Shown piece by piece: positions 14,642 through 64,000 of a DNA stretch of 64,000 nt. The stretch is from Pusillibacter faecalis. Its GTDB lineage: Bacteria; Bacillota; Clostridia; Oscillospirales; Oscillospiraceae. The notes below the pieces were generated by a model. It was not told the DNA's origin. It was given only the letters and a program-made list of their open reading frames with translations, and searched no databases. Within the stretch, counting starts at the first letter, position 1. Every line of letters starts with the position of its first letter. The translations under genes and the position numbers were made by a program. The stretch spans positions 310,001-374,000 of the forward strand of contig NZ_AP023421.1 in assembly GCF_018408705.1 (NCBI RefSeq), in the 5' to 3' direction.

Positions 14642-14752
14642 GCTCTCCCACTTGCTGACGGACTGCCGGGTGACACCCAGTTGATCTGCCAGCTGCTCCT
14701 GACTCAGGCCCGCTTTCCGGCGAAGCTGGGATAACTTTTCTGAAAACTGCAT
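14642..14752 (-). pseudogene. 5' part of the XRE gene split by element 1
   Basis: Encodes MQFSEKLSQLRRKAGLSQEQ and the rest of the HTH up to SVSKWESG, 37 codons from the ATG at 14752, then runs into the element and stops at 14624. It is the missing N-terminus of the fragment at 6459-7116. The short product could still fold as an HTH stub, but it lacks the end of the domain. Confidence 0.88.
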
Positions 14753-14879
14753 CTTTGTGACACTCACCTTCCCTTTGGATGCCCCCATCATAGACCACCT
14801 GCCGTGTTCCGGCAAGAACGCGGCAGGTGGAACTTTGTCAACTGATGGTTGCATCCCTTGTGCCGCAGCCCTCTCGCCT

Positions 14880-15890
14880 TTACCAGATTCCCAGGAGATG
14901 CTGCACGCCAAGGCTCACGCCCGCAATCGCCACCCAGCAGCAAAACCCCATGAAAATCGGCTTGCCGCCTGTCTTCACCAGCTTGATGAGATCGGTGTTC
15001 AGCCCGATTGCCGCCATGGCCATGACGATGAAAAACTTACTGGCGTCTTTCAGGAAGGCCACCACTGCCGCAGGGATCGGCACCACAGTTGTCACCACGG
15101 AGGCCAGCAGGAAAAACAGGACAAACCACGGGAAGATCTTCTTGAGATTGACCTGGGCTCCTCCGCTGCGATCGCTCTTCCCGGCCCGGCGGAGAGCCAG
15201 AACCAGTGTGATAGGAATGATAGCAAGAGTTCTGGTCATCTTAACAATGGCTGCGGTGTCCAGTGTGTTGGCCCCCGGGTGCATACCATCCCAGGCGGCG
15301 GCCGCCGCTGTGACAGAGGAGGTGTCGTTCACTGCCGTACCTGCGAAGAGGCCGAACCCCTCGTTGGACAGTCCCAGCGCACTGCCAAGCGTTGGGAAGA
15401 TCAGCGCGGCCAGCACATTGAAGAGGAAGATCACCGAGATTGCCTGTGCAATCTCCTCGTCGTCCGCGGCAATCACGGGGGCCGTGGCGGCAATGGCGCT
15501 TCCGCCACAGATAGAGGACCCCACACCGATCAGCGTGGAAATATGAGCGTCCATCTTCATGGCCCGATAGAGGACATAGGCGACGATCAGCGAGGTTGCA
15601 ATGGTGGAGAGGATGATGGGCAGGGACTGTCCTCCTACCTGCAGGACGCTGGCAAGGTTCATGCCAAAGCCCAGCAGTACCACCGCCAGCTGCAAAATTT
15701 TCTTGGAGGTATAAGTAATCCCGGGCTTGGCTCCACCCTGCTCCTTCCAAAACAGCGCAATCACCATGCCGATCAGAATGGCGAATACGGGTCCGCCCAC
15801 CACCTCAAAGCGCTTTCCCAGCAGCCACGCGGGAACGGCAATCACCAGGCAGAGCAAAATTCCCCATGCATATTTCTTCAAAAAATTCAT
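14880..15890 (-). CDS. yeiH: YeiH/UPF0324-family membrane transporter (putative sulfate exporter family)
   Basis: 336 aa with about ten membrane segments. The conserved [19 protein letters not shown] motif near residues 122-140, the [14 protein letters not shown] segment and [11 protein letters not shown] identify the conserved hypothetical 698/YeiH family. Members have been linked to sulfate or sulfonate export, but the substrate is not established. The ATG follows gggaggaatct. It is a single gene, transcribed toward the split regulator. Confidence 0.88.
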
Positions 15891-15968
15891 AGATTCCTCC
15901 CAGATGAAAATTTTTTAACACATGGTTGTTTATGATACCACTTGATTCCCAGTTTGTCAAAAAATTTG

Positions 15969-15999
15969 GAGCGGCCCGCTATCTTGGGCCGCTCCTTTT
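15969..15999. terminator. Terminator after the ECF-partner gene
   Basis: GAGCGGCCC / GGGCCGCTC stem with a 7-nt loop. On the minus strand it is followed by AAATTTTTT, just after the stop at 16004. Confidence 0.8.
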
Positions 16000-16003
16000 C
16001 TAT

Positions 16004-17101
16004 TTAGGTAAGTGGAATCCGTGTTTCTCCCCATAAAAGATAGTCAGCTTCTGTCAAGGCAACAGGCTGTGCAAATGTAGTGGACACCTGATGGCGATTT
16101 CCGCTGCCCAAAGAGCTGAATCCGCCGTTGAATTCCATCTGGCTTCCGTCCTCCATCACCAGAGAGAGCTTCGCAGAGGGCGTGATAGAAACAGCCATGG
16201 GTGTAGTGCTCCCATCCTCTCCAACCATGCCAACCACGGCGTCTTCCTCTTGTATGGCCCGCTCAGCTTCTTTTGCCGCCTCAGCTACCGCTTCATCGTA
16301 GTGGTACGTGTACTCCACCCGCACAGGCGAAATCCGCAGACTGTCCATGACAATGGGACCATACGGGGTCTCTGTGGTCAGGCCCGCTGCATCTAGAGTC
16401 CAAACCAGTTCCTGGCTCATGCTCTCTGTGATTGGGAACAGCCACTCCCCTTCCGCTATGGCAACAGTCTCTTCCCCATTTATCTCCCAGAGGCCTGGAA
16501 TCCGCAGGGTCTTTCCAACCAGCGTGCCATCGGCGTGGATCTCCACCACCATGCGAATCCGGTTATCGTCTGGGTCTAAATCCTCCAAGTAGTCGTCAGC
16601 AATCATATATCCAAGGAACTCGGCTTCCTCCAAACCGTTCGAATTCACCAAGGTAATCCGGTTTTCCAGGTTCTTTCCATCCATCAGCGTATAGCATGCG
16701 TCCTCGCCGTCCAACAGGGGGAGCATGGTTCCCTCTGGAGTCTGAATCTCCAGCATGAGATAAAATACGCCATCCGCCCCAAAGGCAGCCAGAGGCTTCA
16801 TTGTGGTTCCGCCACAGGTCACAGGGGGCGGCAGCTCCCCACTCAGTTCTTCCATCAAATCCCGTTCGTTTGCACTCAGGCTTCCAAAATACGCCTCCCA
16901 AAGCGGCGCGGCGACGGCGGTCGCCGTGCCGATCAAAAGCACTGCCGCGAGAACCCCAGCCAAGCTTCGCCGCCCCCAGCCGCAGCGCCGTCTGGAGGAG
17001 TGAAATGCCGACTGTGTTAGGAGAGCCGTTTTCAGGGCGGCCTTTCCCTCCGCCGTATAACGCACCTGATTCAGCTCATTTTGATAAACATTCTTCTCCA
17101 T
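16004..17101 (-). CDS. Membrane-anchored partner of the ECF sigma factor (anti-sigma-like, DUF4179-type)
   Basis: 365 aa. A cytoplasmic N-terminus of about 45 residues (YTAEGKAALKTALL) precedes one membrane helix (SLAGVLAAVLLIGTATAVAAPL, about 46-67) and a large outer domain with repeated beta-type sequence. Its start overlaps the sigma gene by 26 bp. The architecture is that of RsgI/DUF4179-like proteins that hold an ECF sigma factor at the membrane. The anti-sigma role is inferred from position and shape, not from a catalytic motif. Confidence 0.7.
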   Translation of the reverse strand: MEKNVYQNELNQVRYTAEGKAALKTALLTQSAFHSSRRRCGWGRRSLAGVLAAVLLIGTATAVAAPLWEAYFGSLSANERDLMEELSGELPPPVTCGGTTMKPLAAFGADGVFYLMLEIQTPEGTMLPLLDGEDACYTLMDGKNLENRITLVNSNGLEEAEFLGYMIADDYLEDLDPDDNRIRMVVEIHADGTLVGKTLRIPGLWEINGEETVAIAEGEWLFPITESMSQELVWTLDAAGLTTETPYGPIVMDSLRISPVRVEYTYHYDEAVAEAAKEAERAIQEEDAVVGMVGEDGSTTPMAVSITPSAKLSLVMEDGSQMEFNGGFSSLGSGNRHQVSTTFAQPVALTEADYLLWGETRIPLT

Positions 17102-17654
17102 AAATGCCTCCCAGCATGGTCCGTAATTTTGCCTTGCCCCGGTAGAGATAGGTGCTGACCTGAGTAGCCTTGCATCCCATCAGCTCCGCGATCTCAGCGG
17201 GCTCATACTCCTCGTAATAGCGCAGGTATACTGCCTGCCGATACCGCTCCGGTAAAGACTGAACTGCCCGCAGAACCGGAGTGTCCTCCGGCTCCGGCAG
17301 ATAAACTGCCGCATCTGCGGCGGCATCCAGAGATACCCGCTTTCGAAACCAAGCAGATTTTTTCCAGTCCTTACAGCAGTTCACCGCCACCCGGATGACC
17401 CAGGCTCGTTCCAGCCGCTCTTCAGAAAAACACCGTCGGTTTGTCAGCAGCTTCAACAGTACTATTTGACAGATATCCTGTGCGTCGTGGATACTGCCTG
17501 TCCAGGTCCATGCAATCCGCAGGACCGTGTCTGACCACCGCTCCACGAGCGCTTCGGCCTCCTGGTGGGAATATAGAATCTGCTCCGTAATATCATCTCC
17601 TTTTGAAGGGCCCGTTCTGCTAATAAAACGAAGGAATCTCTGCCAATCTGACAT
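17076..17654 (-). CDS. ECF-type sigma-70 factor
   Basis: 192 aa from the ATG at 17654. Region 2 (ALVERWSDTVLRIAWTWTGSIHDAQDICQIVLLKLL) and region 4 (LPERYRQAVYLRYYEEYEPAEIAELMGCKATQVSTYLYRGKAKLR) are clear, without regions 1 or 3. The start is unsure: ATGs at 17654 and upstream have no ribosome site, whereas a good aaaggag lies 5 bp before an in-frame ATT at 17591 (I-T-E-Q-I-L-Y). It forms an operon with the membrane protein that follows. Confidence 0.88.
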   Translation of the reverse strand: MSDWQRFLRFISRTGPSKGDDITEQILYSHQEAEALVERWSDTVLRIAWTWTGSIHDAQDICQIVLLKLLTNRRCFSEERLERAWVIRVAVNCCKDWKKSAWFRKRVSLDAAADAAVYLPEPEDTPVLRAVQSLPERYRQAVYLRYYEEYEPAEIAELMGCKATQVSTYLYRGKAKLRTMLGGIYGEECLSK

Positions 17655-52135: not shown

Positions 52136-52481
52136 CCGCTATATCCGTAACGACGACGGTGTGTATACTCGAATCCCACAGGAAGATCGTCCACCTGCTT
52201 TCTCAGGTACGGGTCCGGAACGAAGCTCTCCCAGCGGCGGGCAGGTTCCTCCGCCAAACACCGGAGACACGTCTCCTCCCAAACAGGAGCAGCGTTCACC
52301 AGAGGGAGGCAGCCGCTGGTCTGATGGTTTGACGGGAATGCTGCGTCACTTCCTGGATCAACTCCACCTGGACCATGTGGACACAGGGGACCTCCTGCTG
52401 CTGGTGCTGCTATTCTTCCTCTTCCGGGAGGATGCCGATGAAGAGCTCCTTGTAGCTCTGGGGCTGCTGTTAATTCTATAA
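52128..52481 (+). CDS. Small protein with Leu-rich C-terminus, unknown (third of three)
   Basis: 117 aa. A hydrophilic N-terminus (MYNRYIRNDDGVYTRIPQED), a Pro/Ser/Gln-rich middle, and a hydrophobic end DLLLLVLLFFLF-REDADEE-LLVALGLLLIL, two membrane-type helices separated by an acidic turn. Overlaps the previous gene by 8 bp. It may anchor the other two at a membrane. No known family. Confidence 0.75.
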   Translation: MYNRYIRNDDGVYTRIPQEDRPPAFSGTGPERSSPSGGQVPPPNTGDTSPPKQEQRSPEGGSRWSDGLTGMLRHFLDQLHLDHVDTGDLLLLVLLFFLFREDADEELLVALGLLLIL

Positions 52482-52536
52482 ATGCGGTGCATCTTTTTTC
52501 CTCTCCGGATGCTTTTCGATTTCCCATAGAACCATA

Positions 52537-52552
52537 AAAACAGGGGTGAAGC
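52537..52552 (+). repeat. Left arm of the terminator split by element 2
   Basis: AAAACAGGGGTGAAGC. Its exact complement lies at 63067-63082. Together they would form a 16-bp terminator stem between the two convergent chromosomal genes. Confidence 0.8.
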
Positions 52553-52612
52553 ATAAGGATGTGCCCCTATAAGGAAGTAATTTGATTGTCGCAGGGCGGC
52601 ATGGCTGAAAGG

Positions 52613-54265
52613 TCATGCCGTCCTGTCTTTTCTTTGCCGTTCCACAGTCTGATCGTCGCCGGGCAGGTTGACTTCTCCAATGAAGTTCCAGACTAGTTCA
52701 ATCTTCTGCCTGCGGTGGCCGCTGGACTTATCCGGCGCATGGACGATAATCTTCTTTACAAACTCATTGACGATAGTGGGTGTCAATTCCCGGATACCTA
52801 CATATTTCCGTACAATGGCTGCAAAGCTGTCAAAGTCGGATCGATCCTGTTCAAAGGTTTCTACCACTTCCCGCCATGTCTTAATCTGCTCTGTCAGTTC
52901 TCTTTGTTCCGCTTCATAATCAGCGGAGAGTTTCAAGAACCGTTCATGGCTGATCGTCCCGCTGATGTCATCCTCATAGATGCGCTTGAAAATGCGGTCA
53001 AGTTCGCCAATACGCTTTTCCGCTTGGGCAATTTCACGCTTGCGTTTCTGAGCCTCTTTTTCGGCTTCTTGGAAGTGCTGCTTTTTCGCGGCTTCCTCAA
53101 ATGCCATAGCATCATCAAAGAACAGCGCCGTCACATCGAAAATCCGCTGCAAAACAAACAGTTTCAGCGTTTCTTCCCGGATGAAGTGCATGGTACAGTC
53201 GCCTGTATTGCTCTTATACCGGGAACACCGATAGCAGTCTTGCTGCGGCGTCATGTTTTTACCTGTGGCGAAATGCAGTTTGCTTCCGCAATCGGCGCAG
53301 TACAGCAGGCCAGAAAACAGCCCTTGCCGTTCAGCTTGCTTGGCCGGACGGCGCTTGTTCTCCCGCAATTCTTGTACCCGCACAAAGACTTGTTCATCAA
53401 TAATGGCAGGCTGTGTATTGGGGAAAATCCGCTGGTTTTCCGGGACGTTATGCAGTCGCTTTTTCAGTTTGTGGGACTTGGAATAGGTCTTGAAGTTCAC
53501 TGTACAGCCGGTGTACTCTGGACGCTCCAAGATCCCCGCCACAGATTTCGGGTCCCAGTGATACGGTTTTTCAGGCAGCGTTTTTCCGGCACGCTGGGCA
53601 TAATGTGCCTTGACAGTCAGGATGTGTTCGGCAGTCAGCAACTTGGCAATCTGCATGGGGCCTTTTCCCGCAATGCACAGGTCAAAAATACGCTTGACGA
53701 TCTCGGCAGCTTCCTCGTCCACAATCCACTTCTTTTTGTCCGCTGGGTCTTTCATATACCCGTAGGGCGGATTGGTGCAGAGGTGTTCCCCAGAGTTTCC
53801 TTTGGCACGCATGACGGCACGGATTTTCTTGCTGGTATCGCGGGCGTAGAAGTCGTTGAACAGATTGCGAAAAGGGGTAAAATCGTTGTCTCCCTTGTCG
53901 CTGTCCACACCGTCATTGATGGCGATATATCGAATATCACGTTCCGCAAAGAAACTCTCGGTATAGTAGCCCACTTTCAGGTAATCCCGCCCCATGCGGG
54001 ACATATCTTTGACAATAACGGTCTGGACTTTCCCCGCTTCTGCAAGGCGTATCATCTCATTCCAACCGGGTCTATCGAAAGTGACACCGGAAACGCCGTC
54101 ATCAATGAAAAATGTGGGATTGGAAAAATGATTGTCCGTTGCGTATTTGAGCAGGATTTTCTTCTGGTTGGCAATGCTGTTGCTCTCGCCGTCCAGCGCA
54201 TCCTCTTGGGACAGGCGGGCGTATAAAGCGGTGATGTTGTCGGGATATTTTGTGTTTGCTGTCAT
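52613..54265 (-). CDS. Large serine recombinase of element 2
   Basis: 550 aa. Resolvase domain with Ser in LYARLSQEDAL (about residue 18), SRMGRDYLKVGYY; recombinase domain about 180-300; zinc ribbon CADCG...CYRCSRYKSNTGDC near 340-385; a long coiled coil (about 400-475) and a DUF4368-like end. It is only distantly similar to the element 1 enzyme. Terminal gene, 58 bp inside the left border. Confidence 0.95.
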   Translation of the reverse strand: MTANTKYPDNITALYARLSQEDALDGESNSIANQKKILLKYATDNHFSNPTFFIDDGVSGVTFDRPGWNEMIRLAEAGKVQTVIVKDMSRMGRDYLKVGYYTESFFAERDIRYIAINDGVDSDKGDNDFTPFRNLFNDFYARDTSKKIRAVMRAKGNSGEHLCTNPPYGYMKDPADKKKWIVDEEAAEIVKRIFDLCIAGKGPMQIAKLLTAEHILTVKAHYAQRAGKTLPEKPYHWDPKSVAGILERPEYTGCTVNFKTYSKSHKLKKRLHNVPENQRIFPNTQPAIIDEQVFVRVQELRENKRRPAKQAERQGLFSGLLYCADCGSKLHFATGKNMTPQQDCYRCSRYKSNTGDCTMHFIREETLKLFVLQRIFDVTALFFDDAMAFEEAAKKQHFQEAEKEAQKRKREIAQAEKRIGELDRIFKRIYEDDISGTISHERFLKLSADYEAEQRELTEQIKTWREVVETFEQDRSDFDSFAAIVRKYVGIRELTPTIVNEFVKKIIVHAPDKSSGHRRQKIELVWNFIGEVNLPGDDQTVERQRKDRTA

Positions 54266-54268
54266 GGT

Positions 54269-54523
54269 TCATTCCTCCTGTAATGAACGCCCGACAAACA
54301 GGTTGCTGTCCTTATTATACCGTGCTTTGTGGTCTTTGTCAGCATCTGTGATGGTTTCTGAGCGGATGAGCCGCACCATTTTGTCATAGAGCGGTTCCGT
54401 TCCGCCGCAGGAAGTATGTACTTCATAGACCGTCCCGCCGAGCCTGTAACAGACAGTTTCTTGCAGCGGATTTCCCCGTTTTGGCAGATAATCGCTCTCT
54501 TTCCGGCTTCGTTTCTGTTCTAT
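54269..54523 (-). pseudogene. TnpW-like small protein without a normal start
   Basis: The frame codes ...QKRSRKESDYLPKRGNPLQETVC-YRLGGTVYEVHTSCGGTEPLYDKMVRLI, where G-T-x-Y-x-V and GG..PLxDK match the small protein of element 1. An aaaggacggg ribosome-like site precedes an ATA at 54523, exactly where a start is expected, so the start codon seems lost by one base change; no other start lies near. It sits directly upstream of the recombinase, with 3 bp between. Confidence 0.5.
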
Positions 54524-54837
54524 TCCGTTCCCGTCCTTTCTGGAAGAATCACAACAGAGCAAGCATAGGGAGTGTAACCACACTCCCGCAAAATCTCCGT
54601 TTCCGGCCTGCTGCCGGGGCGGAGATTTTTGCCTGTTGGGAGCTTCCCAAACCCTTGTTTTTTGCTTCGCCAATAATACGTTTACAAGGACGTAAATTGC
54701 CCGCTGAAACGGGGAGTCAAAAATATTTTTTATGCAGAAGCGGCCTTATGTGAAGTCCTCTGTTTCGCAGCTTTCGCATTTACACAAGAATAATACCGCA
54801 GAACGCTCAAACAAGCATTGTTTTCCGTAATACATTC

Positions 54838-54866
54838 TTGTATTGTCTGAAATAAAGCACTACAAT
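54838..54866 (+). promoter_or_regulatory. Promoter of the two-component genes
   Basis: TTGTAT at 54838-54843, 17-bp spacer, TACAAT at 54861-54866, ahead of aaaggagg. Confidence 0.7.
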
Positions 54867-54894
54867 AAAAACAGGTGAAAGGAGGCCCCTCTAT

Positions 54895-55563
54895 ATGGCA
54901 AATATTTTAATCGTGGAAGATGAAAAGAATATGCAGAGCATTATTGCCGAGTATATGCAGCGAGGCGGTCACTCCTGCTTTACGGCGGACGATGGCGTGG
55001 ACGCTTTAATGATCTTGAAAAACAATCCAATGGACTTAATGATACTGGATGTGATGATGCCCCACCTTGACGGTTTTTCCGTCTGCAAGATGGCAAGGGA
55101 AATGAGCAACCTCCCTATTATCATGCTGACTGCGAAAAGCGAGGAAGAAGATAAACTGAAAGGTTATGAGCTGGGAGCCGATGACTATATTACCAAACCA
55201 TTCAGTCCCAAAGTGTTACTGGCAAAGGTTGGCGCTTTGCTGCGCCGCTCCTCTATCACGCCTACCGATTCTATGAACGCCGGAAAAATTACGATCATCC
55301 CCACATCTCATAAGGTCTTTGTGGATGGACAGGAAATCACTTTGACCCACAAGGAATATGAACTACTGCATTTCTTCATGGTTAATCCCAGCCAGATATT
55401 CAGCAGAGAGCAGTTGCTTAATCGGATTTGGGACTACGACTTTGAGGGAACAACACGGACGGTAGATACCCATATCAAAACCCTGCGGCAGAAATTAGGC
55501 GATGAGGGCCAGCATATTGTTACCTTGATTCGTTCCGGCTACAAATTTGAGGTGAGCGTATGA
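54895..55563 (+). CDS. OmpR-family response regulator
   Basis: 222 aa. Receiver domain with Asp52 in ILDVMMPHLDG and Lys in YITKPFSP; C-terminal winged helix (LTHKEYELLHFFMVNPSQIFSREQLLNRIWDYDFEGTTRTVDTHIKTLRQKLG). The stop overlaps the kinase start (ATGA). Likely binds the 11-bp direct repeats at 56707-56755. Confidence 0.95.
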   Translation: MANILIVEDEKNMQSIIAEYMQRGGHSCFTADDGVDALMILKNNPMDLMILDVMMPHLDGFSVCKMAREMSNLPIIMLTAKSEEEDKLKGYELGADDYITKPFSPKVLLAKVGALLRRSSITPTDSMNAGKITIIPTSHKVFVDGQEITLTHKEYELLHFFMVNPSQIFSREQLLNRIWDYDFEGTTRTVDTHIKTLRQKLGDEGQHIVTLIRSGYKFEVSV

Positions 55564-56636
55564 AGATCAACGAAAACATGAACATCTTTACCATACGAAA
55601 GAAGATACTGCTGGCCTCCAAACTGATTGGCGTTGCCCTGATTTCTTCTTATATATTGTCCACCAAACTGCCAGTGAACACCGATATTTCCTTTGTGATA
55701 TGGTCGGCTTTTGTGGTGGTTCTGGTCTGTGCCATTGATCTGCTGATGGCCCGCTTTATCACAAAGCCGGTTTCGGAACTGAATGAAGCTGCCCGGAACA
55801 TGGCAGAGCTTAATTTTTCACACCCCTGCCAGGTGGAAAGCCGTGATGAATTTGGACAGCTTGCGGAGAGCCTGAACATGATGGCCGAAAACCTGCAACA
55901 GGCGTTTTCTTCTCTGGAAGATGCCAACCGGAAATTAGAGCAGGATGTGGAGCAGAAAAAAAGACTGCTTGCCGAGCGTAAGGAACTGGTGGACAACCTC
56001 TCCCATGAAATGAAAACTCCGCTGGGCGTGATCCGGGCCTATGCCGAGGGATTGCAAGACGAAACAGACGAAGCAAAACGGCAAAAGTATTCCGAGGTCA
56101 TCATAACGGAAACAGAACGCATGAGCCGCTTAATCACTACGCTGCTTGATCTGTCTGCATTGGAAAATGGGGCTACCCAGCTCCGCCCGGAGCGGTTCGA
56201 CTTTGTAGACTTTTTGGAAACGGTGGCAGGACGGCTGCTGATCGACACCCCGGACGCAGATTTTGTTTTGGAATATGAACTGCCGGAGCATCCTGTCTAT
56301 GTCAATACAGACAAAGGGCGGATGGAACAGGTCTTGAATAATCTGATCATCAATGCCAAACGAAATAACAGGCCGGGCGGGATTTTGAGATTGTCCCTGC
56401 TTGAAAAAGACGGCCTTTGGGACTTCTCTATCTTCAATCAGGGGCCGCCTATCCCGGAAGAAAGCCTGTCAAAGATATGGTCGAAATTCTATCGTGATAA
56501 AAATTCCAAATACAGCGGTTCCGGGCTGGGCCTTGCCATTGTTGCACAGGTCTTGTCCATGCAGCACCTACACTATGGCGCAGAAAATCAGCCGGGAGGC
56601 GTGGCCTTTTACTTCTCCCTCCCCACAGTAAAATAA
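55560..56636 (+). CDS. Sensor histidine kinase
   Basis: 358 aa. Two membrane helices (about 17-33 and 41-60) with almost no extracellular part, so it probably senses within the membrane or via the transporter. Then HAMP (about 62-110), HisKA with DNLSHEMKTPLGVIRAY, and HATPase (NNLIINAKRNN, SGSGLGLAIVAQVL). Intramembrane-sensing kinases of this kind pair with ABC exporters of antimicrobial peptides. Confidence 0.93.
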   Translation: MKINENMNIFTIRKKILLASKLIGVALISSYILSTKLPVNTDISFVIWSAFVVVLVCAIDLLMARFITKPVSELNEAARNMAELNFSHPCQVESRDEFGQLAESLNMMAENLQQAFSSLEDANRKLEQDVEQKKRLLAERKELVDNLSHEMKTPLGVIRAYAEGLQDETDEAKRQKYSEVIITETERMSRLITTLLDLSALENGATQLRPERFDFVDFLETVAGRLLIDTPDADFVLEYELPEHPVYVNTDKGRMEQVLNNLIINAKRNNRPGGILRLSLLEKDGLWDFSIFNQGPPIPEESLSKIWSKFYRDKNSKYSGSGLGLAIVAQVLSMQHLHYGAENQPGGVAFYFSLPTVK

Positions 56637-56706
56637 CAAGTTCATATTCTCTCATAGGCTCTGGTTTCCAAATGGAGATCAGGGCCTTTTCTTCTGCCGG
56701 GAAGAT

Positions 56707-56755
56707 TTCACACCAACTTCACAGCGACCTCACACCGACTTCAACGCATTTTCGT
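56707..56755 (+). promoter_or_regulatory. 11-bp direct repeats, likely response-regulator site
   Basis: TTCACACCAAC, TTCACAGCGAC, CTCACACCGAC, TTCAACGCATT and TTCGT follow each other in exact 11-bp phase upstream of the miniprotein-ABC genes. Tandem 11-bp half-sites are the usual target of OmpR/PhoB-family dimers. Confidence 0.65.
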
Positions 56756-56807
56756 ACCTTTATCCCACAAGGAGGGAGTGACCCTCCAGATAAAGGAGGT
56801 AGCGATT

Positions 56808-56969
56808 ATGTTTTTAGGTATGGAATGGTACTGGTGGCTTTTGATTGTTGTAGCGCTGGTGATCTGCATCCCGTTCAAGGTAAAGTTTATGAAATGGTGG
56901 AGCAAACGGGAACAGGAGAAGAAAAAGAACCAGACCGGAAAATGGGGTGATGAAGATGATCGAGGTTAA
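56808..56969 (+). CDS. 53-aa membrane miniprotein of the ABC operon
   Basis: MFLGMEWYWWLLIVVALVIC, then a basic tail (FMKWWSKREQEKKKN). One membrane helix. The ATG at 56808 follows aaaggaggtagcgatt. It precedes the ATPase gene and overlaps it by 14 bp. It may assist the transporter or sensor kinase; family unknown. Confidence 0.75.
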   Translation: MFLGMEWYWWLLIVVALVICIPFKVKFMKWWSKREQEKKKNQTGKWGDEDDRG

Positions 56970-57804
56970 AAACCTGACTTTTTCCTACGGAAAGGATAAG
57001 CAGGCGTTACATGGCTTGAATTTTTCTGTGGCAGATGGGGAGATTTTCGGATTTTTGGGGCCGAATGGTTCCGGGAAGTCCACCACCCAAAAGATATTGA
57101 CCGGCATCTTAAAAGGGCATGGCGGCGAGGTTTCCCTATTTGGAAAGGATTTGAGAACCGCACAGACGCAGGAGTTTTTTCAGCAGATCGGCGTCCTGTT
57201 TGAGTTTCCTTATCTGTACGCTAATTTAAGCGCAGTGGACAATCTGAACTATTTTGCGTCCTTTTATCCCAAAGAACAACTGCGGGATGTAAAAGAACTG
57301 CTGGAAGAACTGGAATTTAAGAAAGACTTTCTCAATAAGCCGGTGTCCTCCTACTCCAAAGGGATGCGGCAGCGTGTGAGCATGGCGAGGGCTTTGATCA
57401 GCAATCCGAAACTTTTATTTTTGGACGAACCCACCAGCGGCCTTGATCCCGCCGGCGCTGTGCTTTTTCGGAAAATCATCGAGAAAGAACGGCAAAAAGG
57501 CACAACGGTATTTCTCACAACACACAATATGCTGGACGCTGATCTGCTCTGTGATCGTGTGGCGTTTATCACGAATGGAAATATTGTTGCGCTGGACACG
57601 CCCCAAAATCTGAAAGAGAAAAACAGCAATCACCGCATTGTGGTTTCCTATCTTTATCAGGGCAAGCGAAAGGAGCAGACCATAGAAGCGCCTGAACTGA
57701 AAGCCGGTATTCCTTTCGCCTATGATGAAATCATCAGCATCCATTCGCAGGAGCCGACACTGGAAGATGTCTTTATCCAGTACACGGGAAGGGGGCTGTC
57801 TTAA
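56956..57804 (+). CDS. ABC transporter ATP-binding protein
   Basis: 282 aa from the ATG at 56956 (MIEVKNLTFSYGKDKQALHG); ATG/GTG codons 6-9 bp upstream are in frame but lie over the ribosome site. Walker A GPNGSGKST, Q-loop, signature SYSKGMRQR, Walker B LLFLDEPTSGLD and H-loop LTTHNM. ABC-2 exporter type. Its stop overlaps the start of the first permease. Confidence 0.95.
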   Translation: MIEVKNLTFSYGKDKQALHGLNFSVADGEIFGFLGPNGSGKSTTQKILTGILKGHGGEVSLFGKDLRTAQTQEFFQQIGVLFEFPYLYANLSAVDNLNYFASFYPKEQLRDVKELLEELEFKKDFLNKPVSSYSKGMRQRVSMARALISNPKLLFLDEPTSGLDPAGAVLFRKIIEKERQKGTTVFLTTHNMLDADLLCDRVAFITNGNIVALDTPQNLKEKNSNHRIVVSYLYQGKRKEQTIEAPELKAGIPFAYDEIISIHSQEPTLEDVFIQYTGRGLS

Positions 57805-58796
57805 TGTGGAAAAGCCTTTGTTCTCTGTTCAAAAAAGACTGCCGGATGATGATGTCCGGGAAATTCTTTCTGGTGGCACTGGGTTCCCTTGTTTTATATA
57901 CTCTGTTCATCAATTTCGGCTATGTGAAATTCATGGACGCCCAGCTCTACAATGTGTATCTGTATGATCCGGCTGGGACGCAGACAGAGTTTTCCTCTCT
58001 TGTCCGGCCCGTGTCCTCTTTGGAAGAACTGGATGCAGCCCTTGCCGGTGATGCAAACGGTGTCGGGATTGATGCCAGCGGCAAGACGCCTCATGTTCTG
58101 TTCTATGCGGCAACCGAAAAAGCGGACAGACACAGAACAGACTATGCGCTGTCCCTGCTTTCCCCGGATGGGAATGATACAGCAAAAACCGTCGGCAGCA
58201 ACAGTCCTGAAATGAAGCAGCGCCGGGAGATCACCTGTGAACTTCTCTTTATTGAGATTGTAGCTGTTGGATTTTTGGGAATTGCTTCGGTGCTGTTTAA
58301 GGAAAAGCAGATGGGCGTGATTCGCGTCCATGCCGTTATGCCACTGCATAAGAGCCTGTTTGTATGCTCCAAAATCATGCTCTTTCTAATTACCGATTTG
58401 GTTTTTGCGGCCTTAATGGTTCTGTTCAATGTGGGGCTGGGCGGGATGTCGGTTTTGCCTGCGGTGCTGGTGCAGACCGCTATCCTCTCCTTGATTATGG
58501 CACTGGCAGGCTTCGGCTGTACCATGCTTCTGCGGGACTTTAAGCAATTTTCACTGGCGTATCTGGTAATTGCGCTCTTTGCGGCTACGCCGGTATTTCT
58601 GGCGGCGAATACTTCTGTCAAGATGGCGTGGATTGACTATCACCCGTTTTACCATGTGTATATGGGCCTAAAAAATGCCTTTTTCGGCATCCCGACTACA
58701 AGCCCGGTCTACTATGCCGGTGCGATAGGCGCAATCATTCTACTCTTTATCCTTGTAGAAGCTGCGTTCCGCAAGGAAATGGGAAAGGAGGGCTGA
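57804..58796 (+). CDS. ABC-2 exporter permease 1
   Basis: 330 aa. An N-terminal helix (FLVALGSLVLYTLFINFGYV), a roughly 100-residue outer loop and five C-terminal helices. Similar in outline to the permeases annotated as fluoroquinolone or lantibiotic exporters in Firmicutes elements; the substrate is not known. Start overlaps the ATPase stop (TAATG). Confidence 0.88.
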   Translation: MWKSLCSLFKKDCRMMMSGKFFLVALGSLVLYTLFINFGYVKFMDAQLYNVYLYDPAGTQTEFSSLVRPVSSLEELDAALAGDANGVGIDASGKTPHVLFYAATEKADRHRTDYALSLLSPDGNDTAKTVGSNSPEMKQRREITCELLFIEIVAVGFLGIASVLFKEKQMGVIRVHAVMPLHKSLFVCSKIMLFLITDLVFAALMVLFNVGLGGMSVLPAVLVQTAILSLIMALAGFGCTMLLRDFKQFSLAYLVIALFAATPVFLAANTSVKMAWIDYHPFYHVYMGLKNAFFGIPTTSPVYYAGAIGAIILLFILVEAAFRKEMGKEG

Positions 58797-58798
58797 CA

Positions 58799-59809
58799 AT
58801 GAAAGGACTGATCTATCAACTGAAAAGTGTCCGAAAAGACAAGTTCTGTATCATGTCATTTCTCCTGCCTATCGTGGTCGCTGTGGCATTGAATTTTGTC
58901 GGCTCCATTGACCTTTCTTCATTGGGGGAATTTCATTTTGGAGTAACGGCAAAGGCCACCACTTCGGAAGTCAACACATGGCTGGAACGGTACGGTACTG
59001 TCACCGTTTATCCCACACAGGAAGAACTGATTGCGGCCATCAACGAACCGTCAACAAACCTGATCGGCGTGGAAATGGCTGACGGCAGCATCCAGACAAT
59101 CCTTTCCGGCGATGAACTGGATATGTTTCAGCAGACAGCAGGCACGCTCCCGGCTCTTTACGAGCAGAGGGAATGGGCGGCACAGGCCAGTGTGCAGGTA
59201 TTGGAGCGCCCGGATATGATGGCGGGCTATCAGAATATCTTTATTGCCATTACGCTGATTGTGGCAATGTTCATGGGCTGTACCTTTAATGCCATGAACA
59301 TTATTTCTGAAAAAGAGGATGGCGTTGCGCTGATCAATGAAATCCTGCCTATGACGCACAGACAGTACATGATGCAGAAAATCTTTGTGGGTTTTGTATT
59401 CGGCTGCCTGTCCGCTATTCTTACAGCGGCAATCTGTTTCCGGCTCTCTTTCACAGGGGCGGCGGTCATGCTGGCATTGATCGTCCTTTCCGCATTTGTG
59501 TCGGCCCTGATCGGTTTGTTTGTGGGCAAACTCTCCGATGGCATGATGGTAGGTGTGGTTTATATTAAAATCGTGATGATTGTATTTATGGCGGTTCCGA
59601 TTCTGAATTATCTGGTCGGTGCAAGAAACAAAGTCCTTTCCTACATTTGCCATCTGATCCCGTCCAGCGCCACCTTTGAGGGCATTATGGATTTGGCGAA
59701 TGGAACTGCATCAACAGCGGTTAAGGACATCATTATTCTCGCTCTCCATTGTGTCCTTTGGTTCTTGCTCTATCTGTTTGTATCTAAGCGGCAGAAAAAA
59801 CATATTTAA
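58799..59809 (+). CDS. ABC-2 exporter permease 2
   Basis: 336 aa behind aaaggagggctgaca. Same topology as permease 1: helix (FCIMSFLLPIVVAVALNFVG), outer loop, then helices from about 142, including IVAMFMGCTFNAMNIISEKEDGVALINEILPM. The pair probably makes a heterodimeric channel. Confidence 0.88.
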   Translation: MKGLIYQLKSVRKDKFCIMSFLLPIVVAVALNFVGSIDLSSLGEFHFGVTAKATTSEVNTWLERYGTVTVYPTQEELIAAINEPSTNLIGVEMADGSIQTILSGDELDMFQQTAGTLPALYEQREWAAQASVQVLERPDMMAGYQNIFIAITLIVAMFMGCTFNAMNIISEKEDGVALINEILPMTHRQYMMQKIFVGFVFGCLSAILTAAICFRLSFTGAAVMLALIVLSAFVSALIGLFVGKLSDGMMVGVVYIKIVMIVFMAVPILNYLVGARNKVLSYICHLIPSSATFEGIMDLANGTASTAVKDIIILALHCVLWFLLYLFVSKRQKKHI

Positions 59810-59827
59810 CTGATTATAATGTGCAAA

Positions 59828-59869
59828 CCTGCCCCTGACGGGGAAAGAAAAAAACCGTTGACAGGGGCA
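59828..59869. terminator. Hairpin after the ABC operon
   Basis: CCTGCCCCTG / CAGGGGCAGG arms around a 22-nt A-rich loop, 18 bp past the last permease gene; no long T-run. Confidence 0.5.
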
Positions 59870-60000
59870 GGGCGATATTCCATGTTTCAACGACCTTTTC
59901 ATTTCTGCGGCGGTTTTGAGTAGATCAAGGCCGCCGTTTCTTTTTGCTTCGACGACCCCTGCACCGTGTTCTGGCATGGCGGCTTTAGGAGGGAGCCGCC

Positions 60001-60108
60001 ATGCAACGAAAACCACTTCGACAAATTCTGACAGGGGTTAGCCTGTCAAAAAAAGCCGTCCCCCGGCAGCGGGGACAAGCGGCTGTGTATATGTACTATA
60101 CCATGTAG
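60001..60108 (+). CDS. 35-aa leader-type peptide
   Basis: MQRKPLRQILTGVSLSKKAV with an Arg/Lys-rich body and a C-terminal AVYMYYTM. A strong taggaggg lies 7-13 bp before the ATG. It is followed after 23 bp by a terminator-like hairpin and then a sigma-like gene, as expected for transcription attenuation. Could also be a small functional peptide. Confidence 0.55.
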   Translation: MQRKPLRQILTGVSLSKKAVPRQRGQAAVYMYYTM

Positions 60109-60131
60109 GAAAAGAACATATTGCTTTTTGT

Positions 60132-60163
60132 TTCGCCCAGCGGGTCTTTGACCTGCCGGGCGA
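60132..60163 (+). terminator. Attenuator-like hairpin before the sigma-like gene
   Basis: TTCGCCCAGCGGGT-ctttg-ACCTGCCGGGCGAA followed by TTTTGTTATTT: a typical intrinsic terminator located between the leader peptide and the next gene. Confidence 0.75.
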
Positions 60164-60280
60164 ATTTTGTTATTTCCTGCGGTTCTTCGGTGCGGGCTGG
60201 AGCCGCCGCATTGTTACAGATGAAAGGAGTGGTGAAAACAGCTTTATCTTCTCATTCTCCCGCAGATCGGGGGTGAGAAG

Positions 60281-60715
60281 ATGAAAGAATATACCCCTGA
60301 TTATGTGAAATGTTGTCAGTTCGACCATTACTGCAAGCTGGTTCTATACCATGAAGCGATTGACTACCTGCGGGAAATGCAGAGATACCGCAAGTACCAA
60401 ATATCCTTAGAGGATATTTCCCTGGCTCAATGGGACAAGTTCTCCACACGGGACGAGTACCCCAGCGACAGCTTTGTGTTCTCGGCCTTTGGCTATGCCC
60501 TACATATCCGGGATGAGCTGGTGGCCGGAGCCTTTGTCAAGCTGCCAGAGCAGGAGCAGCAAATTTTAATTCTGCATTATGTCGCAACTATGGCAGACAC
60601 CAACATTGGCCGTCTTATGGGAATGTCCCGCAGCGCCGTTCAGCGGCACCGTACCAAAGCCCTGAATGAATTGCGGAAACGATTGGAGGACGACGGAGGG
60701 AGAAAAGCGAAATGA
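60281..60715 (+). CDS. Sigma-70 region-4-like regulator of conjugative-transposon type
   Basis: 144 aa. Contains LPEQEQQILILHYVATMADTNIGRLMGMSRSAVQRHRTKALNELRKRL, a sigma region 4 HTH; no region 2. Matches the Tn916 Orf7-type factors of conjugative transposons. Its stop overlaps the next gene (ATGA). Here it is separated from any integrase of the tyrosine type, so it is likely a borrowed regulatory block. Confidence 0.85.
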   Translation: MKEYTPDYVKCCQFDHYCKLVLYHEAIDYLREMQRYRKYQISLEDISLAQWDKFSTRDEYPSDSFVFSAFGYALHIRDELVAGAFVKLPEQEQQILILHYVATMADTNIGRLMGMSRSAVQRHRTKALNELRKRLEDDGGRKAK

Positions 60716-60948
60716 AGCAGCCAACTTTCTACGGGCGGGAACTGTTGCCCTTGTCTGTGATCGAGGCGGCTCGCGCCGGTGATCCGCTGGCCGTGGAAAG
60801 TGTCTTGCGATATTATGACGGCTACATGAATAAACTGTGTACCCGGACACTCTACGATCTGGACGGTTTGCCTCATGTGCGGGTGGATGAATACATGAAA
60901 CACCGCTTGCAGGCAAAGCTCACGGAAGTCATCGTAAACAAGAAATAG
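60712..60948 (+). CDS. HTH_16-type conjugative-transposon protein (Tn916 Orf8-like)
   Basis: 78 aa. LLPLSVIEAARAGDPLAVESVLRYYDGYMNKLCTR is the helix-turn-helix domain common in conjugative transposon regulators next to Orf7-like sigma factors. It overlaps the sigma-like gene by 4 bp. The stop codon opens the structured repeat at 60947. Confidence 0.85.
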   Translation: MKQPTFYGRELLPLSVIEAARAGDPLAVESVLRYYDGYMNKLCTRTLYDLDGLPHVRVDEYMKHRLQAKLTEVIVNKK

Positions 60949-61019
60949 CAAAGACAAAGGAAGCCGTCAAGGGTCGGGATGAACGCTCCGCGCCCTTGAC
61001 GGCTTCCTCCACCTTTGCT
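60947..61019 (+). repeat. Structured repeat, copy 2 (AGCAAAG...CTTTGCT)
   Basis: Closing stem AGCAAAG/CTTTGCT, inner stem AGCCGTCAAGGG/CCCTTGACGGCT and the loop GGTCGGGATGAACG, as in element 1 at 13016-13098. It begins on the stop codon of the HTH gene. Confidence 0.65.
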
Positions 61020-61031
61020 GTGTGGTAACCA

Positions 61032-61064
61032 AGCGGGCGCAAGCAGAAATTCGCTTGCGCCCGC
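61032..61064. terminator. Hairpin downstream of the structured repeat
   Basis: AGCGGGCGCAAGC / GCTTGCGCCCGCT arms with a 7-nt loop; no T-run. Confidence 0.5.
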
Positions 61065-61209
61065 TGCTATTATGACGTTTGTGCCTACGCATTTAGAGGG
61101 TAGAAAGGCCCTATACTACTGGGCGTTTCTGGCGTGGTTGGGCTGCTGGAAGTACCATACCATTCTTACCCCTGTAAATGCAGTTTGAAATGCGTAGAAA
61201 TTTCTACAG

Positions 61210-62349
61210 TCAATCACCCTGAGTAAGTGGCAGAAAATTTGTAACGTTATTCATTACCCAATATCGTTCACTCATGTCAAGTTCGCCAGATACTGAAACC
61301 TCAAGTCCGTCTCTATGAGCATCACAAGCGATACGATATTGTGCATCTGATAGAGAAATTGTTACTGTACGCGGTGAGCCATTAAAAGTAGTATAAAGTC
61401 TAATGGTTTTTAAATCACTGTCAGATTCAGTTCTCTTTGACAACGAACGTATAATTCCTGTAAGATTAACGTCTTGAATTGCAACTTTATCTCTATAGAT
61501 CTTTGATAATTCATCAATAACAAGAAAATGATTGGCACGCATTTCAATTCTCTTAACTTGACCAGTTCGGTTAGTCAACGAGGAAGCAAATCGAATTGTT
61601 GTAGTAACCTTGTCTGCATCAGAAACAGGACGCATCTTTAAAAACGCGTCACACATATTGGCCGTAATACCATCTTCAAAGGCGGTTTCCGCCGTTTCAC
61701 TTAGTTGACATTGATTTTGAACAATAGCGTCTACTTGTCCAATAGCGGTTCCTATTCTTTCGATTACCTTGTGTTCAAAAGGCGTTGGAACATCACACTC
61801 ACACCCGTCTAACACAGTTTGCTCATTATTTTCATCAACAACCTGAATATCAACGTTCAGAATAAAGCTGCCTTTTTCTGTTTGTGCTAGTTTGAACTTG
61901 TTGAGTAATGACTTTGCATACTCTGTCGCACGATAACAAATAGGACGAGCAGATTGTTCCGCACAGACTGAATATAGAATGAGTTCTTTTAACCCCTCAA
62001 CGCAATCCGCTGCATATTCGAGAGGAATTTTCCCATCTTCCGTAATTTCAGAAATAACTCGAATTTCCAAACGGTCAATGAAAGTAGTAGTTATGTCTTT
62101 TATGATTTCATTCGCTGGGCGATTTTCCTTCTTTTGTAGCAATTCAATCACATTGCTAACAATTGAATAAAAATCGTCGAACTCTTCACTAGCAGGAATC
62201 GCTATGGTTTTCGGAGAGTTATTTCTGCTCGTATAAACCATCATATTGTGATTGGCAAAATCATAATTTCTTGTCCAACCATTAAGTTGTAAATATCTAT
62301 CCATAGAGGCTGCCGTTATGTTATAAATGCCGTATATATAACTTTTCAT
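61210..62349 (-). CDS. Unknown partner protein of the DUF4365 module
   Basis: 379 aa, AT-rich. Begins MKSYIYGIYNITAASMDRYL. It has a central segment L-A-Q-T-E-K-G-S-F-I-L (about 155-165), then PFEHKVIERIGTAIGQVD, FEDGITANMCDAFLKM and RIEMRANHFLVIDELSKIYR, and a beta-rich end (TVTISLSDAQYRIACDAHRDG...VSGELDM). From memory, an uncharacterised family across bacteria shares the Q-T-E-x-G-S-F and G-x-S-A-N-x-C landmarks; no domain name is claimed. Its ATG overlaps the stop of the DUF4365 gene, so the pair is one operon. No catalytic motif is evident. Confidence 0.6.
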   Translation of the reverse strand: MKSYIYGIYNITAASMDRYLQLNGWTRNYDFANHNMMVYTSRNNSPKTIAIPASEEFDDFYSIVSNVIELLQKKENRPANEIIKDITTTFIDRLEIRVISEITEDGKIPLEYAADCVEGLKELILYSVCAEQSARPICYRATEYAKSLLNKFKLAQTEKGSFILNVDIQVVDENNEQTVLDGCECDVPTPFEHKVIERIGTAIGQVDAIVQNQCQLSETAETAFEDGITANMCDAFLKMRPVSDADKVTTTIRFASSLTNRTGQVKRIEMRANHFLVIDELSKIYRDKVAIQDVNLTGIIRSLSKRTESDSDLKTIRLYTTFNGSPRTVTISLSDAQYRIACDAHRDGLEVSVSGELDMSERYWVMNNVTNFLPLTQGD

Positions 62350-62855
62350 AACGCTACACCCTCTTTCACTCTTTGCATCAATTGTACAAGAACCTCTGGC
62401 GTCAACTGCTGATCTAATGGAATATCAATTACTACTCGTTCTTTATTTTCGACTTCTGGGTGACCTTTTAATGAACACCACCATGCACATCTACGCAATA
62501 AAGTTTCTTCATTATTAACAGTCAACCACATATCTTTTTCTCGAGGCATTGAGTAGACAATTAAAATTCGTGGCGTTCCCACTCGAGTTTTGATCAGTTT
62601 ATGATAATTTTTGACTTCCAAACTATACTTTATGACTCCATTTTTAGGAGATGCATTAATGGTAGCTTTTAATTGAAAGTCAATTCCAAAACCTGTTTCT
62701 CCATATTCTTTGGTCGCTGCATCATATTCAATGTCCTTAAATGTGCCATCAAAGCCATAATCCAGTGACGAATTTGCCACTGTCATGCCTACGCGAGCAG
62801 CAAGCGCATTCACGTACGCTTTACTGATGAGTTCTTTTGTATGCGCCTCCGTCAC
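62346..62855 (-). CDS. DUF4365 (PD-(D/E)xK nuclease-like) protein
   Basis: 169 aa from a GTG at 62855 behind aaaggcggtgatttt. Core: SSLDYGFDGTF (D-x-G-x-D), GIDFQLKAT (D-x-Q-x-K), YSLEVKNYHKLI, RILIVYSMPRE; the spaced Asp/Gln-Lys residues fit the restriction-endonuclease-like fold of DUF4365. Such domains occur in phage-defence contexts, often beside a second protein of unknown function. It has its own good promoter. Confidence 0.8.
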   Translation of the reverse strand: MTEAHTKELISKAYVNALAARVGMTVANSSLDYGFDGTFKDIEYDAATKEYGETGFGIDFQLKATINASPKNGVIKYSLEVKNYHKLIKTRVGTPRILIVYSMPREKDMWLTVNNEETLLRRCAWWCSLKGHPEVENKERVVIDIPLDQQLTPEVLVQLMQRVKEGVAL

Positions 62856-62875
62856 AAAATCACCGCCTTTCCAAC

Positions 62876-62904
62876 ATTATACTATATCTACAAGATACGC
62901 ACAA
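62876..62904 (-). promoter_or_regulatory. Promoter of the DUF4365 module
   Basis: On the minus strand TTGTGC (62899-62904), 17-bp spacer, TATAAT (62876-62881). Confidence 0.75.
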
Positions 62905-62968
62905 CAAAATATGACATACTTTGAGAAAAATGTGTCCCCATTCCTAAGTAAATCAGTCCAATAAAAAT

Positions 62969-63002
62969 AGGCGCATCACATATCATTGTGATGCGCCTAT
63001 TA
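62969..63002. terminator. Hairpin near the right end of element 2
   Basis: ATAGGCGCATCACA-tatcat-TGTGATGCGCCTAT, a perfect 14-bp stem. Separates the module from the attachment end. The 250 bp from 62856 to 63108 hold no gene. Confidence 0.6.
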
Positions 63003-63066
63003 GCACCTGATTGTCAGCCGTTAAGTTTAATTCATTTTTGATACTTCCTTATCGGTATTCACCAAA

Positions 63067-63082
63067 GCTTCACCCCTGTTTT
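63067..63082 (-). repeat. Right arm of the terminator split by element 2
   Basis: GCTTCACCCCTGTTTT, exact complement of 52537-52552. Confidence 0.8.
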
Positions 63083-63108
63083 CTATTTGAAACTTGGAAG
63101 GCATCCCA

Positions 63109-63849
63109 TCACCACAAAAATGTTCCGTCCGGCAATGTGAACTCCGCCGCCGTAGGCTCTGTCTGATCCACAGTCAACGACAGCATCCGGTAAACTGTCT
63201 CGTCCCCCAGCAGCTTTTCCGCCGCCACCAGCAGCCCACTATCCACGCCGATCCAGTATCGCAGGGTATACTCCCCTGTCTGGGCCTCCGCATAAATACA
63301 AGCCACATTGGAGATGGTGCGGTAATCCGCAGCAATAATTGATTCTACATCCAGACTCAAGATATCTTCGTATGTGGGAATGGGAAGCTCATGATCCGCA
63401 GTGATGTCCCCCACGGGGCTGGTGTAAACCGCCGCCTCATTGTTATACCAAATATAGACATCCTCCGGGCCTGTAATCGTATGGCGCACCCGACCGTCCG
63501 GCATCGTACGGTCTGTCCGGGTCCAAGGACCGCTGACCGCCATTGCGATCTCATAAGAGCTGCTGCCGCCGGACCAAAACTGCTCCACCGTTACGGTCCG
63601 GCGATATGCCTCCGGCCGCGCCAGGGTTTCCACCGCGGCCTGCACCGTGGAGGGCGATACCTCCACCACAGCCAAGGCGCCATCAGGAGTCGGAATCTCC
63701 CCGGTCTGCCCGGATGTGGTGCTGGTATCCGGAAGAACCATACCATCCGGACCGTGCAGTGTGTCCATCAGCATCATCACCAGCACCAATACTGTCAGCA
63801 CAACAAAGACCCAGGTGATCCAGCTGAGCTTCCGCCTGTCCACACCCAT
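63109..63849 (-). CDS. Membrane-anchored outer protein, unknown
   Basis: 246 aa behind gggaaaggagag. One N-terminal membrane helix (WITWVFVVLTVLVLVMMLMD, about 10-29), a low-complexity linker (residues 35-60), then a beta-rich domain (VSPSTVQAAVETLARPEAYRRTVTVEQFWSGG..., YIWYNNEAAVYTSPVGD, YRMLSLTVDQTEP) that could fold like LolA/LppX lipid-binding proteins. Function unknown. Lies 21 bp downstream of wecB, so likely cotranscribed. Confidence 0.72.
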   Translation of the reverse strand: MGVDRRKLSWITWVFVVLTVLVLVMMLMDTLHGPDGMVLPDTSTTSGQTGEIPTPDGALAVVEVSPSTVQAAVETLARPEAYRRTVTVEQFWSGGSSSYEIAMAVSGPWTRTDRTMPDGRVRHTITGPEDVYIWYNNEAAVYTSPVGDITADHELPIPTYEDILSLDVESIIAADYRTISNVACIYAEAQTGEYTLRYWIGVDSGLLVAAEKLLGDETVYRMLSLTVDQTEPTAAEFTLPDGTFLW

Positions 63850-63870
63850 CTCTCCTTTCCCGGATGGCGG

Positions 63871-64000
63871 TTATCCCTGATAATCCGCAGGCCGTTCTCC
63901 CCGCTGGAAATGCCACAAAACCGCATCCGCAATCCGCCGGCAGGCCTGACCGTCTCCATAGGGATTCACTGCATGGGCCATGGCCGCATAGGCGTTCCGG
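63871..64000 (-). CDS. wecB: UDP-N-acetylglucosamine 2-epimerase (C-terminal end only)
   Basis: 43 codons to a stop at 63871; the gene continues outside the window. The sequence ...[22 protein letters not shown] is the conserved C-terminal end of the WecB/MnaA family (N-P-Y-G-D-G-x-A). The enzyme makes UDP-ManNAc, possibly the donor for the TagA glycosyltransferase at 22547-23266. Confidence 0.85.

Follow-up and report, generated by a model that had tools for sequence, protein, structure and literature searches.

What could two overlapping genes at one end of a mobile element contribute to Pusillibacter faecalis? The question is raised by a 64,000-nucleotide stretch of its DNA (contig NZ_AP023421.1, positions 310,001 to 374,000; hereafter the window), in which gene A, encoding a DUF4365 protein, precedes gene B, encoding a 379-aa protein. 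A preliminary description had proposed an uncharacterised defence system in which the partner B senses or directs the nuclease A. We found that the A-B pair is a new member of a known, catalogued candidate family, PDC-M02, and is not new as a candidate. The earlier interpretation is thus partly supported, with the sensing or directing role of B being something that it had inferred.

Both genes are real open reading frames (ORFs) on the minus strand (Table 1). The stop of A and the start of B share 4 nt (ATGA), in agreement with the translational coupling claimed earlier, and A matched Pfam DUF4365 (PF14280) at residues 9-161 with E 1.2e-21 and 77.6 bits (gathering cut-off 24.3). PADLOC labelled A as PDC-M02A (25 families; best PDLC04297, 6.7e-54, residues 1-167 of 169) and B as PDC-M02B (best PDLC04319, 6.3e-187, residues 1-374 of 379), all of the best 25 of the 35 families matched by B being PDC-M02B. 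PDC-M02 membership entails an A-type and a B-type protein encoded side by side on one strand; here both match over nearly full length and their genes overlap by 4 nt, and nothing places the pair outside the family. The mobile setting and the defence label stand, but a pair already listed as PDC-M02 is not an uncharacterised find.

The PADLOC entry has an empty description field and gives no mechanism, and a full-text search of open-licence papers returned none naming PDC-M02. Passages in PMC12988326 and PMC11811056 present PDCs as unvalidated defence candidates, which according to PMC12988326 were identified because they lie embedded in known defence systems. B received no function from Pfam, NCBIfam or PHROGs; in the last of these, two families of unknown function matched, one for A and one for B. 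Neither these three nor PADLOC nor the other libraries searched placed the pair in a non-defence family. Our contribution is a picture of the PDC-M02 proteins and of the pair's means of spread; none of the open-licence papers searched gave the structural interpretation or noted that B is modular in build.

Since B had 183 homologues at E <= 0.001 and its pairing with A is conserved, the gene pair is not a product of chance. We compared 37 B loci, made up of the window, 8 genome-contig, 14 viral-contig and 13 plasmid loci and phage LE1. Gene A lay directly upstream on the same strand in 34 of the 37, which are not all independent (for example, the records L023 and L046 each have the size of phage LE1, and L005/L012 and L016/L018 look identical). 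The gap between A and B was -11 to +4 nt in 33 loci and -145 in L120, where the mechanical start of B is probably too early. As to the other three, B was cut at the contig end in L009, the upstream ORF in L116 matched a transposase domain, and no A was found beside B in L122. Viewed from the A side, B followed directly at 11 of 14 viral loci (7 on contigs of the first set); two of the exceptions end at A (L137, L141) and the third lies near a contig end where a B fragment had been seen earlier (L147; L025). Homologues of B thus do not usually occur without DUF4365, and the dedicated partnership proposed for the nuclease-fold protein is borne out. Relatives occur in Bacillota, Pseudomonadota, Actinomycetota, Spirochaetota and Bdellovibrionota, with a short form in Cyanobacteriota, a patchy distribution that fits horizontal transfer. 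Leptospira phage LE1 also bears an A-B pair (L046 7453-9131).

Protein A is a predicted nuclease. It has the motifs that the preliminary description had picked out, as D32-Y-G-F-D36 and D59-F-Q61-L-K63, and in a 56-row alignment D32, D36, Q61 and K63 were invariant and D59 was kept in at least 90% of rows. Its modelled fold together with the acidic...QxK residues is that of PD-(D/E)XK and DREN nucleases, and its closest structural relatives are DREN domains. We therefore assign A, on its model, a predicted PD-(D/E)XK fold like that of the SPARDA DREN, with D32, D36, Q61 and K63 as candidate active site. Because PDB sequence searches with A gave nothing significant, its link to SPARDA is one of structure and a shared Pfam name only. 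The sole rows returned there for A, to glycerol kinase (E at least 0.7), were discarded as chance. SPARDA also differs in architecture: its DREN is fused to APAZ and has a short prokaryotic Argonaute (pAgo) next door, whereas the 169-aa A has no fused APAZ and B matched no Argonaute family in Pfam, NCBIfam or its best 25 of 35 PADLOC families.

The structure model of B (pLDDT 87.1) is modular, with an N-domain (about residues 1-91), a middle domain (about 92-290) and a C-terminal quarter (about 291-379) that forms a five-strand barrel with a helix, an OB fold in the model. The earlier statement that B has no known fold thus needs amending for this last part. The N-domain is the sole part of B retained in all partners examined: those of cyanobacterial A proteins are a short form of N-domain and OB fold only, and an Azospirillum partner joins the N-domain to a different C-terminus. 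The alpha-beta-beta-beta-alpha order of the N-domain model raised the idea of HicA. In hhalign the N-domain matched HicA weakly (probability 10-21%; its score of 27.7 compares with a maximum of 16.4 among 60 shuffles), and its hidden Markov model matched 1 of 17 HicA proteins at E <= 0.01 (17 of 22 above-cut-off matches, 28 in total; 5 weak or partial ones above the cut-off and 6 below it were left out). The residue aligned with the HicA catalytic histidine, H34, had no majority residue in A1, a 77-row alignment of B used alongside a separate wider one. We keep this weak HicA/dsRBD-like likeness as a resemblance only. A PDB sequence search with B gave one row, interleukin-33 at E 0.83, dismissed as chance.

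Such proteins could also carry out partner-directed restriction, in spirit type IV-like, in which B would recognise DNA that is foreign, modified or of special structure and recruit A there, confining the cutting to the invader and sparing the cell. The fold of A does match restriction enzymes, at lower Z (for example DpnI 7.0, EcoRV about 5), and B offers an OB fold and an N-domain with a weak HicA/dsRBD-like resemblance. As the element has no methyltransferase partner, restriction of this kind would need a modification-independent trigger. No recognised modification or sequence was identified. The DREN domains closest to A are collateral nucleases according to passages in PMC12205087 and PMC10810196, and we consider directed restriction unlikely.

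The structure of B pointed elsewhere as well. In BFVD its model matched an uncharacterised protein (E 1.4e-7) and the DUF6575 viral protein A0A8S5QA00 (E 3.4e-7), and two DUF6575 proteins match PADLOC PD-T4-10_B (1.5e-14 and 2.6e-10), with PD-T4-10_A matches just upstream. PD-T4-10, like PDC-M02, is a two-gene pair, and a section of PMC9519451 reports that its second protein is toxic and its first neutralises it. A toxin-antitoxin mode of this type, with one protein of the overlapping pair toxic and the other neutralising it until infection, would nevertheless require reversed roles, since the nuclease is the first gene in PDC-M02 and a small PD-T4-10_A protein is first there. Nor did B show a convincing sequence match: A1 against DUF6575 scored 11.8 in hhalign, below shuffles, and with the wide alignment the match was colinear but weak (probability 2.4%, though none of 100 column shuffles reached its score). 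The structural match is weak as well, the TM-score of B against the DUF6575 model being 0.30. Pfam PF20215 (DUF6575) was not matched by A1 members among their best 25 of 68 families. DUF6575 searches gave no match in 117 genomes of the order and 2 in 398 of the phylum, and a PDC-M63B search gave none in 197 genomes of the order, where the controls likewise gave none. We judge this mode quite improbable. In two Bacillota genomes (L111 823-2455; L112 1057-2706), DUF6575 proteins match PD-T4-10_B at their N-terminal part and PDC-M63B beyond it. An upstream gene resembling PD-T4-10_A accompanies them, and the arrangement suggests a relationship between these catalogue entries.

Locally, an accessory and defence-like character of the pair is best supported by a slot whose contents are swapped. 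The earlier claim that the two genes occupy the cargo end of an integrative element is confirmed. A sister element on contig C1 of the same genome (L049) shares the recombinase region (86%), the sigma/HTH_16 genes (75%) and the right-end 67 bp (82%). Between its sigma/HTH_16 genes and right end (14711-17588) it carries PDC-M37A (1.7e-125) and PDC-M37B (2.3e-153; DolB 1.8e-36). Dodola, whose DolB matches there, is a known defence system, and a passage in PMC11811056 labels one locus both PDC-M37 and Dodola. Its proteins, an AAA ATPase and a membrane-type protein, are unrelated to A and B and occupy the same slot in the same element family. In G503 both flanks lie 42 bp apart, window position 61200 meeting 63000. 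We call this a cargo slot because it holds PDC-M02, PDC-M37 or nothing in the three elements in which it was resolved. Among 13 further stretches whose sigma/HTH_16 region is related, BLAST located the right end only in L071 (G503). Near-motifs in L072 and L073 were not confirmed as further right ends. The slot is a natural place to seek more untested systems.

The swapping bears on a non-defence role, in which a Hjc-like resolvase and an OB-fold protein would form a DNA-processing module for replication, recombination or upkeep of mobile elements or phages. The structural match of A to the archaeal Holliday junction resolvase Hjc was lower than to SPARDA, and we know of no B-like partner of Hjc. 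Sporadic presence (B in 1 of 394 genomes of the order, the window's own), an accessory slot that can be empty or hold PDC-M37AB, and the PADLOC listing all speak against such a role, to which we give the lowest likelihood of all. The pair in phage LE1 does not decide the matter, because phages carry defence genes too.

The surroundings of other loci were mixed. HsdM, HsdS and HsdR of a type I restriction-modification (RM) system (Pfam) lie directly upstream of the pair in L007. In L113, GmrSD_N is matched by 2 of 3 ORFs annotated as DUF262, and a protein of the Abi family is close by; near the pair in L123 lie two candidate Druantia parts, a DEAD helicase and an STY4851/ECs_5259 protein. Others, such as L047, have ordinary plasmid genes. 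ORFs examined in L008 had no Pfam match to type I RM, and those of L003 no BLAST match to the L007 subunits, and both were set aside as further cases. Control stretches, 8 chosen arbitrarily from the same plasmids, 6 of them annotated, held defence-type genes in 2 of the 6 (L126, L130). At E <= 1e-15, PADLOC gave 138 families for 94 ORFs around L002-L008 against 38 for 88 ORFs in five control stretches, from which we draw no enrichment, because a family count is not a gene count (a single methyltransferase can match many profiles) and each list was covered for its best 25 families. The predicted enrichment near restriction or Abi genes is thus not demonstrated, being neither shown nor excluded.

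Defence in some form is likely. The best available model, for which the balance of probability is even at most, is that PDC-M02 is a two-protein anti-phage (or anti-plasmid) module in which B controls A and, once it senses nucleic acid, sets this collateral nuclease free. A would be a stand-alone DUF4365 nuclease with the fold and active-site pattern of the SPARDA DREN domain, held by B and freed upon infection. The N-domain of B would dock on A, whilst the middle domain and OB fold would sense infection, the simplest trigger being binding of single-stranded or otherwise exposed nucleic acid. B would then let A assemble into an active form that degrades DNA without specificity, so that the phage, and probably the cell with it, is stopped.

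Several points weigh against this model. A fold in common does not prove function, OB folds are widespread, and neither protein had a significant PDB match by sequence, nor the model of B any PDB row at E 0.001 or better. In NbaSPARDA the DREN becomes active when it tetramerises on a filament of Argonaute, and nothing indicates that B can drive such tetramerisation. The rarity of B in the order and the defence-type genes in control stretches belong here too. No experiment on PDC-M02 was found in the open-licence papers searched, and a section of PMC12409345 reports that PDC-M63, a related-looking candidate, and PDC-S04 were assayed in the native host with no defence observed.

A broader reading, possible but doubtful, is that PDC-M02 is an Argonaute-free counterpart of SPARDA, in which a modular protein sensor replaces the guide-loaded Argonaute of a DREN-type collateral nuclease and DUF4365 serves as a plug-in platform with exchangeable sensors. 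The N-domain of B would be the constant nuclease adaptor, and the sensors the middle domain and OB fold here, the OB fold alone in cyanobacteria and another C-terminus in Azospirillum. If true, a collateral nuclease understood so far only with short Argonautes would work with an unrelated modular partner, and effector and trigger would be exchangeable. An uncharacterised catalogue entry thereby yields testable claims about the part of B that holds the nuclease, the part that does the sensing and the residues responsible for cutting.

Table 1. Features of the element and the A-B pair (window positions).
Feature	Position	Strand	Basis or remark
Integrative element, about 10.5 kb	52570..63051		End inverted repeat; sister L049; uninserted neighbourhood in G406
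Large serine recombinase (Resolvase, Recombinase, zinc ribbon, DUF4368)	52613..54265	minus	ORF, Pfam; left end
Left-hand cargo: response regulator, histidine kinase, ABC transporter ATPase, two permeases	54895..59809	plus	ORFs
Sigma-70 region 4-like protein	60281..60715	plus	ORF, Pfam; common to sister element
HTH_16 protein	60712..60948	plus	ORF, Pfam; common to sister element
Right-hand cargo slot	61200..63000		PDC-M02 here; PDC-M37AB in L049; 42 bp in G503 (L071)
Gene B: 379-aa PDC-M02B protein	61210..62349	minus	ORF; PDC-M02B match
A stop / B start overlap, 4 nt, ATGA	62346..62349	minus	Sequence
Gene A: 169-aa DUF4365 / PDC-M02A protein	62346..62855	minus	ORF, GTG start
Probable promoter of A-B	62876..62904	minus	Sequence; same build in L002
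Terminator-like hairpin, 15 pairs, T-rich tail	62966..63001	minus	Between the pair's promoter and chromosomal gene 63109-63849, same strand

The private near-consensus promoter claimed for the pair is probable, with a perfect TATAAT -10 (62881-62876) and a 17-nt spacer, but its TTGTGC -35 (62904-62899) is weak, with fewer than four of six matches; 9 of 12 positions fit the consensus, and the promoter was absent from the output of a consensus scan. An inverted repeat, TATCT-TGT-AGATA (62885-62897), lies within the spacer, and in C. methylpentosum (L002) A is likewise preceded by TTGwGC-17-TATAAT. The hairpin beyond it would insulate A-B from the same-strand chromosomal gene. Base composition, reported earlier as unlike both flanks, is so: GC in 1-kb windows is 37-41% in the module, 45-51% in the remaining element, 48-61% in the left 12 kb and 56% to the right. 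Rfam gave no match within 52400-64000, nor megablast of 60900-63100 against plasmids.

The element ends in an inverted repeat, ATAAGGAAGTA, at 52569-52579 and 63042-63052. Its left-hand cargo, assigned by Pfam for 54895-55563 and 57804-58796 and otherwise by sequence reading, also differs from that of the sister element, which has a MarR regulator and ABC transporters (L049 8249-13131) in place of the two-component system and ABC transporter. The element splits a 16-bp inverted repeat, AAAACAGGGGTGAAGC (52537-52552 and 63067-63082), and its joined flanks form a terminator-like hairpin (-34 kcal/mol). The joined flanks of the sister element (L049 6037-6045 and 17701-17709) also fold as one (-43). 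The recombinase thus seems to target intrinsic terminators. Directly before the slot lie inverted CTACGCATTT and AAATGCGTAG (61085-61094 and 61188-61197), about 110 bp apart; G503 (L071) has these repeats too, and the sister element has a less exact version. Past the HTH_16 gene come two GC-rich inverted repeats (60947-61065), which both the sister element and G503 conserve.
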